In this document: piece after piece, positions 9,946-61,795 of the stretch
How positions within the stretch are numbered: position 1 is the stretch's first letter
Layout: each line of letters starts with the position of its first letter
NCBI RefSeq assembly: GCF_014652455.1
Contig: NZ_BMYV01000002.1
Span: 248,001-312,000 of the forward strand
Length of the DNA: 64,000 bases
DNA from: Litorimonas cladophorae
Lineage (GTDB): Bacteria > Pseudomonadota > Alphaproteobacteria > Caulobacterales > Maricaulaceae
Direction of reading: 5' to 3'
The notes under the pieces: generated by a model
What the model saw: the letters and a program-made list of their open reading frames with translations, nothing else
Told to the model about the DNA's origin: nothing
Databases searched by the model: none
Made by a program: the position numbers and the translations under genes

Positions 9946-10148
9946 GGCAAATGGCTTAGGTCCGCATGACCCCCTTGTCATCCCATATGACCGCAAAGTC
10001 CCGCCTAGACGCAGGTGGAAGCCAAGGATTGTGAAAGCGAGTTAGGCCCTTAGAATTGGGCACTTATAATCAGGCCCATATAATTAGGCATGGGCTATCG
10101 CTTACAGACCCCATTGAAACTTCTGTTTCAATATTGGTGGCTGCCCAA
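9946..10148. other. Intergenic stretch before RNA element A
   Basis: I see no coding potential here. A perfect 8-base hairpin ATTGAAAC/GTTTCAAT with a TTCT loop lies at 10113-10132. A consensus -10 hexamer TATAAT lies at 10065-10070 on the plus strand, although its -35 is poor. This could be the promoter region of the structured element that follows, which is speculative. Confidence 0.3.
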
Positions 10149-10584
10149 ATGCGTTACCCGATAAGGTGGGACGTCCGCGTGGCCAATACTCGCGACGGAG
10201 TACCGAAATGGAAAAATGTTTTACGCAAGTATCGATGTGTATGCGCTTGCTAGGCGAACACACACTGCATTCAAGCTGACGCTTAATTGCAGGACCACGC
10301 GGCAGTGTTTCTCGGGTAGCGGCCTCACTGGATTGCCCCCGTTCCAGGGGGTCAGGCACGCGCTACTCGGCCCCTCTGCACATGCATTACCAAATGCAGC
10401 TAGGCACACCGTCTTTCGGACGAGCTAGTGCAATTTACCGAAGGTAAAATGCACCAGTGCGATGTTTTTACAAACACTACACAGTCAATGATCACTTGCC
10501 TGTCCCGTGTCCGAAAGAACCATTTAAACATAGGGGTAAAATGGGGGGCGGGGATCATTCTCTTTGAAACTACAGTTTTATGGC
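10149..10584 (+). ncRNA. Structured RNA element, copy A
   Basis: No convincing protein is encoded here. The stretch is homologous to 43006-43321 (copy B). Blocks GACGGAGTACCGAA, GAAAAATGTTTTACGCAAGT (10211-10230) and the 3' block CCTGTCC to GGGGATC (10499-10555) are shared. Helices covary between the copies. CCGCGTGG (10175-10182) pairs with CCACGCGG (10295-10302). AATACT (10185-10190) pairs with AGTGTT (10304-10309), giving a pseudoknot topology. GTAGCG (10316-10321) pairs with CGCTAC (10361-10366). CCCCC-GTTCCA-GGGGG (10336-10351) keeps the same loop as copy B. Copy A also has an extra arm of about 60 bases (10231-10294) and a long hairpin GTGCAATTTACC-GAA-GGTAAAATGCAC. The orientation is inferred as plus. 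It may be a solo HEARO/omega-RNA-like element; this is not proven. Confidence 0.6.
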
Positions 10585-10727
10585 GGATTGCGTGGCTTCA
10601 AAGACGGGAGGGATGTGTATTCAGGCGCAAAGTAGGCATGAACTCAGTGATTTAGACCGCCCAAAGAAGGACGCTCAGCAAGTTTCCAATATTGACCTTG
10701 CTTGGTAACCTAACCTATCGTTCTAAG
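10585..10727. other. Intergenic stretch between RNA element A and the Sel1 lipoprotein gene
   Basis: No gene, terminator or clear promoter is visible. A frame upstream of the lipoprotein start is open from 10692, but its first residues do not resemble a signal peptide, so the stretch is treated as untranslated. Confidence 0.3.
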
Positions 10728-42893: not shown

Positions 42894-43005
42894 ATTGGAA
42901 CGCCTCTCTTTGCCTCCCATCAATTTGCGACTTATAGTTTAAATGTAGCAACGAATGAAAATATAACAAGCGTTTGCGCTCACAGCTCATCGAGTAGCTG
43001 TCGAG
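42894..43005. other. Short gap before RNA element B
   Basis: There is no gene here. The stretch has an inverted pair CAGCT/AGCTG (42982-42999 region) and leads into the structured element B. No clear promoter could be assigned. Confidence 0.25.
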
Positions 43006-43321
43006 ATGCGATGCCTAAGAAATAGGACTGCCCGCAGGATCAGCACTCACGACGGAGTACCGAAGTAGAAAAATGTTTTACGCAAGTGATAATCCTGCGG
43101 CGGTGCTCTCAGATGGCGGCCGGAATTTATTTCCTGTCGTTCCAGACAGTTCAACTCACACCATCAGGCTCCCCTGTGCAGACGTTACCCCGCACAAATA
43201 AGCACACCGTCCTCCAGACCAGCAAGTAACGTCTCACCTGTCCTACGTCCGGAAGAACCATTTAAACATACGGGTAAAATCGGGAGCGGGGATCGGTCTC
43301 TTGGAAATAGATTTACGGCCT
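43006..43321 (+). ncRNA. Structured RNA element, copy B
   Basis: This is the compact copy of the element at 10149-10584, with the same order of conserved blocks. Helices read as follows. CCGCAGGAT (43032-43040) pairs with ATCCTGCGG (43092-43100). AGCACT (43042-43047) pairs with GGTGCT (43102-43107), crossing the first helix as a pseudoknot. GATGG (43112-43116) pairs with CCATC (43161-43165). CTGTC-GTTCCA-GACAG (43134-43149) and GACGTTAC/GTAACGTC (43181-43188 and 43226-43233) follow. Where A and B differ, both strands of the helices differ. The 3' block CCTGTCC to GGGGATC aligns without gaps. No ORF of note is inside. Solo mobile RNA is my reading. Confidence 0.6.
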
Positions 43322-43424
43322 TGGAAAACAATAAAATTATTTTTCCGAAATCAAGGATCAACTTTCGAGATCCTCCCATCCATCCCGCCAATTCGGCGAG
43401 ACGGTAATTTAATCAGAAAGAGAC

Positions 43425-61718: not shown

Positions 61719-61795
61719 GGTGGGGTAGCTCAGCTGGTTAGAGCGCAGGACTCATAATCCTGAGGTCGAGAGTTCAAGTCTCTCTCCCACTACCA
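61719..61795 (+). tRNA. tRNA-Met (CAT), elongator type
   Basis: This is a 77-base gene with encoded CCA. The D arm AGCTCAGCTGGTTAGAGC, the anticodon arm with CAT at 61753-61755 (loop CTCATAA), and the T arm GAGAG-TTCAAGT-CTCTC are all present. The acceptor stem has a G1-U72 wobble. The pattern matches elongator tRNA-Met; tRNA-Ile with lysidine shares the anticodon, but its body usually differs. It lacks the initiator features. Confidence 0.95.

Follow-up and report, generated by a model that had tools for sequence, protein, structure and literature searches.

The window, by which we mean the whole 64,000-nucleotide stretch analysed here, belongs to a 3.02-Mb genome of nine contigs that is 100% complete (G000). 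Sequence comparison within the window identified two homologous copies, A and B, of a long element (Table 1). The initial annotation had drawn copy A at 10149-10584, which is too short: the sequence shared with other copies extends from ~10088 to ~10613, and an outer 5′ motif is present in 15 of 34 own-genome copies. It had also seen no protein there, in agreement with the length of the ORFs over A (at most 85 codons), and had counted A and B as two independent loci, where they are 2 of ~43 copies.

Table 1. Features of copies A and B in window coordinates, with the strand indicated for each.
Feature	Position	Strand	Remarks
Copy A, whole element	10088..10613	-	ends approximate; 34 own-genome copies compared
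Copy A, probable RNA ends	5′ near 10613, 3′ near 10088	-	
Copy B, whole element	42965..43367	-	ends approximate; homology to A and R1 matches
Variable insert V1 of A	10233..10294	-	missing from copy B and others
P1, one strand	10175..10182	-	CCGCGTGG on +; partner 10295-10302
P1, other strand	10295..10302	-	CCACGCGG on +
P4, one strand	10303..10307	-	CAGTG on +; partner 10407-10411
P4, other strand	10407..10411	-	CACCG on +
P3, one strand	10413..10421	-	CTTTCGGAC on +; partner 10509-10517
P3, other strand	10509..10517	-	GTCCGAAAG on +; inside conserved motif CCTGTCCCRTGTCCGAAAGAAC (10499-10520)
P0, 3′ strand in RNA	10168..10172	-	GGGAC on +; partner 10502-10506
P0, 5′ strand in RNA	10502..10506	-	GTCCC on +
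Hairpin CCCCC-GTTCCA-GGGGG	10336..10351	-	exchangeable middle domain
Conserved hairpin-forming motif	10196..10205	-	CGGAGTACCG on + (YGG-ARTA-CCR)
Strand 'a'	10186..10189	-	ATAC on +; partners 10200-10203 (local hairpin) or 10229-10232, mutually exclusive
Patch of A 99% identical to G000:C1:406546-406929	10150..10533	-	384 bp
Self-complementary TGATCA, copy A	10489..10494	.	
Proposed kissing-hairpin region, copy A	10486..10498	-	predicted fold
Copy B loop, AACGTC on +	43228..43233	.	RNA GACGUU, palindromic only with a G.U pair

Copy A gave 66 BLAST matches in its own genome, which group by hand into 39 places. R1, a covariance model of one conserved end of the element (73 positions, built from 42 copies picked from 88 dissimilar ones), matched 43 times in G000, 50, 41, 40, 39, 36, 35, 34, 32 and 25 times in nine congeners, 6 and 4 times in two more, and nowhere in six of the 18 genomes of the genus. 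The RNA family proposed in the initial annotation thus has abundant homologues. Beyond the genus, bearers made up 11 of 299 genomes in a sample of the order, all 11 from one family, and 26 of 137 genomes and 6 of 19 genera in a sample of that family, where the distribution is patchy; in a class sample of 385 genomes G000 was the sole bearer, with none among the 384 others. These multi-genome searches applied stricter filters under which weak matches are lost, and because R1 was built on one genus, remote relatives could escape detection.

A pattern scan of GTDB returned at least 102 stretches, mostly from uncultured Caulobacterales assemblies and Hellea sp. MAG-194, on which ground the genome is called Hellea-like. 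One of them is a Rhizobium match (L133). Another copy (L107) sits on a contig labelled as an Akkermansiaceae MAG, which may be a misbinned contig or a transfer. G318, of genus g22, carries at least 36 copies and its listed relatives 0-5, perhaps through a separate expansion. Several R1 matches lie within a few hundred bases of MAG contig ends (G011:C9:28, G011:C41:22, G005:C74:82, G008:C16:71, G016:C145:117), as expected if repeats break short-read assemblies.

To describe the fold we compared copies across genomes. Two sets of 145 and 166 model matches yielded 144 paired and 138 distinct copies. The 5′ anchor is present in 127 of the 138, with a partner for the P1 count in 125, and the 3′ anchor in 136 (L013 and L029 lack it); 129 copies were cut into segments, of which 126 were kept, and 133 entered domain classing. 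Every helix sequence quoted in the initial annotation occurs in copies A and B. The first of these helices, P1 (CCGCAGGAT at 43032 and ATCCTGCGG at 43092 in copy B), proved real: the four pairs that vary most are retained in 121, 122, 119 and 119 of 126 copies (shuffled means 92.2, 61.0, 103.2 and 94.8), and all four are intact in 108 of 125 copies versus 43 after shuffling. When all column pairs of the 126 copies were ranked with no structure given, two P1 pairs and one pair from a far domain took the top three places; lower ranks hold many non-complementary columns that merely mark common domain versions. Under minus-strand rules, P4 pair B16-C12 is kept in 125 of 126 copies (shuffled, 100.3), and each of six P3 positions is paired in 123-127 of 129 copies, the sixth with covariation (123/129 versus 101.4). 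Such covariation lies far beyond chance and bears out the claim of a selected RNA fold; its absence is excluded.

A pseudoknot had been claimed as well. One exists, formed by GGGAC/GUCCC (P0), which crosses P3, so that two crossing helices both covary. Its varying pair, A4-D28, is kept in 85 of 126 copies (shuffled mean 70.1, maximum 77), or in 115 of 126 with minus-strand wobble allowed (mean 105.2, maximum 113); the other four pairs are nearly invariant. The crossing helix originally named, AATACT/AGTGTT in A and AGCACT/GGTGCT in B, is not it. Its pairs score 99, 28, 111, 55, 103 and 78 over 126 copies, with shuffled means of 104.6, 29.6, 111.6, 53.3, 97.8 and 80.4, and there is no excess under the rules of either strand, minus included. 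The AATACT strand pairs instead with the adjacent GGAGTACC stretch and with the stretch after TGTTTTACGC.

These pairings of strand 'a' exclude each other, and both beat every shuffle at several pairs across 126 copies. The YGG-ARTA-CCR hairpin keeps pair A34-A43 in 119 of 126 copies (shuffled, 94.5). One of the two partners is able to pair within itself as well, and all three exclusive pairings exceed shuffles. The three alternatives look like a conformational switch, and the RNA may alternate between two folds, perhaps on dimerisation. The remaining quoted hairpin, CCCCC-GTTCCA-GGGGG in A and CTGTC-GTTCCA-GACAG in B, is modestly supported: across 12 aligned rows that do not include copy A itself, columns 120-124 pair with 131-135 and three of the five pairs are doubly changed. 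In controls on plus-strand alignments, 79.8% of cells were paired in the first, versus 67.7% shuffled and 25-40% with the partner slid, and 93.9% in the second, versus 87.8% and 32-47%; in this second control 'further pair types' were no higher than in shuffles.

The strand of the RNA can be read from the mismatches. Taken as plus-strand pairs, the mismatched cells of P3 number 140 A.C and 3 G.T, and those of P0 31 A.C and 4 G.T. An A.C mismatch becomes a G.U pair on the complementary strand, which assigns P3 and P0 to the minus strand. A weak lean in this direction is seen in P2 (G.T 41, A.C 59), P1 is neutral (G.T 27, A.C 25), and the 34-43 hairpin leans to plus (G.T 10, A.C 2). Consensus folding of the same 12 copies, selected from 133 for alike domains, gave -35.8 kcal/mol as written (covariation term -1.84, 45 pairs) and -74.0 kcal/mol for the reverse complement (RNAalifold; covariation term -9.97, 65 pairs, 24 with double changes). 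When copies are folded singly, the minus strand has the lower energy in 29 of 34. By eye, no promoter or terminator was identified in the flanks. A minus-strand RNA is strongly indicated by these patterns.

The most telling feature, absent from the initial annotation, is a self-complementary loop that changes from copy to copy. A perfect 6-nt palindrome lies within the 14 nt ahead of CCTGTCC, a conserved motif (plus strand), in 118 of 136 copies, where shuffling yields a mean of 23.1 and a maximum of 37. Its position is sharply defined: 119 palindrome centres fall in the 10 nt before CCTGTCC and 0-22 in each other 5-nt bin, and of 2163 20-nt windows taken at other upstream positions within the copies, 277 (12.8%) hold a palindrome. 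Among unique 20-mers the figure is 68 of 82, against a shuffled mean of 21% and maximum of 40%. The sequence itself varies, with 11 types in the 136 copies: GAGCTC, GACGTC, AGCGCT, AGGCCT, TGATCA, GTATAC, GTCGAC, GATATC, GGCGCC, TGTACA and CGATCG. Seven of them occur in the own genome, where 29 of 36 copies have a perfect hexamer. The 18 copies lacking one include B. Minus-strand wobble raises the count to 134 of 136, a gain that adds little by itself because shuffles then average ~69 (mean 69.1), and the palindromes rescued in this way are only a few independent types; plus-strand wobble adds a single copy (119, shuffled 47.0).

Eight further loci, those obtained of 14 sought, were read by eye. 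Seven have a palindrome, with CGTACG, GCGCGC and ACGCGT as further types; the exception, L201, comes from the congener with only six copies. All four of these loci that come from other genera have one by the same reading (GACGTC, CGTACG, GCGCGC and CGATCG). Folding of 26-nt segments predicts that the palindrome lies in a loop with a closing stem of at least 3 bp in 91 of 118 cases for the minus strand and in 55 for the plus strand. The copy A type gives a weak predicted hairpin (-2.9 kcal/mol) with GAUC in the loop. A palindrome is needless for intramolecular pairing and is needed for a loop to pair with its twin, which points to symmetric kissing loops. Strict like-with-like pairing was not seen when duplex energies of 23-nt plus-strand segments were computed without restriction: self is the best partner for only 3 of 11 types.

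Copies occupy old chromosomal positions, as judged from 23 of 39 own loci at which another species has the element beside the same neighbour gene. Sites were mostly taken as orthologous on the strength of a single neighbour gene, required to be on the same strand, at a similar distance and at least 50% identical over 50 residues. At 15 dapD loci, five, the own one included, have the element at most ~200 bp behind the stop codon; in G013 it lies ~600 bp on, the element-rich G010 has none there, and the G004 sequence is not long enough to judge. By eye, L200 of another genus (G187) adjoins seemingly the same small gene (...HMKPSSFRMWRKRV...) as the own locus L014, a gene we take to be DUF2805-like; on this common neighbour, some sites may predate the genus.

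What these sites carry is reshuffled. Of 42 typed ortholog pairs, 3 identical ones were dropped and 2 of the remaining 39 were unusable; palindrome type is equal in 6 of the resulting 37, with 5.6 expected from random dealing, and differs in 31 (L042 carries GACGTC and was scored 'none', and its pair differs either way). At least five versions of the middle domain recur among the copies, with 59 of 133 copies unassigned. We read this as exchange by recombination among copies whose sites stay fixed and whose loops stay self-complementary. The twin of the copy A patch lies on another contig, and element sequence differs on both flanks. The patch therefore looks like a recent gene conversion or replacement rather than an insertion, as the twin lies inside two different elements; its borders were rejected as insertion ends because both copies continue as element beyond them. 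Retention of fold and loop by most copies at old sites argues for a per-locus function or for constant refreshing by conversion.

We propose, with a probability of roughly 0.7, that the element encodes a structured minus-strand RNA that dimerises through its variable loop. Copies A and B would be paralogous genes for a large noncoding RNA of ~400-530 nt, built from covarying helices P1, P3 and P4, the P0 x P3 pseudoknot and exchangeable peripheral domains. A small hairpin beside the pseudoknot would present the self-complementary loop, and two RNAs with the same loop would join by a symmetric kissing interaction, which makes a homodimer or higher homo-oligomer the most likely working form. Comparison of the copies establishes the family, its fold, the palindromy and the reshuffling, and from these we infer transcription, dimerisation and a specificity of like for like. 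With seven loop types in the own genome, pairing would be biased to like partners. As copies at old sites are reshuffled by recombination, the loop type would change between species and self-complementarity would be kept.

A more ambitious form of this proposal, to which we give somewhat less than even odds, sees a multigene set of homodimerising RNAs whose loop is a self-recognition tag. At least seven tags per genome would be re-dealt among fixed loci and randomised between species, selection keeping only the self-match, and the three covarying, exclusive pairings would let the RNA switch folds. Our guess at the role is a scaffold of self-assembling RNA that selection has preserved, not a dead repeat.

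The main rival is that the element is selfish, a SINE-like structured RNA or a MITE without autonomy, with a helper in trans and a fold that serves amplification, not the host. Such an element could dimerise too, and its odds overlap with those of the proposed dimerising RNA; taken as an explanation we consider it unlikely, if worth serious attention. Patchiness within the family, copy numbers in the dozens in the genera g1 and g22 (at least 36 in G318) and a dapD site filled in some species and empty in others all fit it, as do the intergenic sites, in both orientations relative to neighbours by an ORF-based reading and with no recurring neighbour gene noticed among the matches listed. The old sites speak against it, since fold and palindrome are nevertheless kept in most copies, as does the 99% twin, with its look of conversion. 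A helper is also hard to find. RVT_1 was found in 6 of the 18 genomes, four with the element and two without it, and the own genome gave no match despite its 43 copies and 100% completeness, which led us to reject a group II intron, a retron or any other reverse-transcribed element. Y1 transposase and TnpB-type domains are absent from all 18 genomes of the genus, and IscB reaches the cut-off of 175 in none (weak partial matches of 31-41 bits occur in 17); an IS200/IS605-type element with omega-RNA, which requires Y1 plus TnpB or IscB, was rejected on this ground. Phage and plasmid records held no match to the element, nor did viral contigs searched with two exact patterns.

A second alternative, which we regard as improbable, places the meaning of the palindromes in DNA, as sites of dimeric DNA-binding proteins or site-specific recombinases, with the fold acting as single-stranded DNA. 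A 6-bp palindrome is indeed also symmetric as duplex DNA, and gene conversion among copies requires DNA recombination. Eleven palindromes at one structural position, seven of them in a single genome, are unlike the site of one protein, and the minus-strand hairpin placement and wobble asymmetry point to RNA.

It is slightly less probable again that the element is a far-diverged form of a known RNA class that escapes the Rfam models. Rfam holds described families only, and the size and complexity of the element resemble OLE, GOLLD and ROOL. The searches were nonetheless empty: Rfam 15 at gathering score found only a tRNA-Met gene (61719-61795) in the whole window, and at E up to 10 nothing in 10050-10700, around copy A. 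Three other loci gave four sub-threshold matches (E 1.1-5), all outside the element and to families named after eukaryotic or archaeal RNAs. The initial reluctance to name the family was justified. A full-text literature search, with most subscription papers beyond its scope, found no description of it. Least probable of all is a plus-strand RNA, as first annotated, which has the 34-43 hairpin and the P1 end pair A21-B6 (G.T 23 versus A.C 12) on its side and was dropped once the A.C excess in P3 and P0 had been counted and the minus strand gave far better consensus energy and covariation.

Parts of the proposed dimerising RNA have precedents. OLE, GOLLD and ROOL are large, ornate, homo-oligomeric bacterial RNAs with Rfam models of their own. 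HEARO, the omega-RNA of IscB and TnpB elements, is a structured RNA in dispersed copies, and the retroviral dimerisation loop is a hairpin loop whose 6-nt palindrome changes in sequence and remains self-complementary. Like OLE, GOLLD and ROOL, the element RNA would be large and highly structured; unlike them it matches no Rfam model, has ~40 copies per genome and 11 hexamer palindromes (seven in the own genome), shows mosaic exchange between copies and is seen only in one bacterial family. With HEARO it shares structure and dispersal, in a genus without Y1 transposase, TnpB-type domain or IscB over cut-off and again with no Rfam match. MITEs and REP-type repeats are likewise dispersed and intergenic with no evident coding, whereas the element folds into many helices over a long stretch, shows compensatory change and is conserved at orthologous sites across species. 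The element RNAs differ from the retroviral loop in being chromosomal and bacterial, and in showing many types within one genome. Symmetric kissing loops with palindrome switching are seen by cryo-EM in OLE and GOLLD, and the OLE switch from GGCC to GAUC or AGCU is taken as evidence of an RNA-RNA contact, the argument applied here (PMC12286853). Switching of this kind is seen in the element, at sequence level, in 118 of 136 copies with 11 palindromes.

As far as the literature search reaches, single parts of this system have precedents and their combination has none. A large, high-copy RNA class can evidently stay undescribed in ordinary genomes. Evolution has here run what amounts to a mutant screen, with at least 11 palindromes at one position, seven of them in one genome, reshuffled between species and all self-matching, and these natural loop variants make RNA self-recognition directly testable with simple gels. 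The finding raises the question of why one bacterium should keep ~40 such genes.
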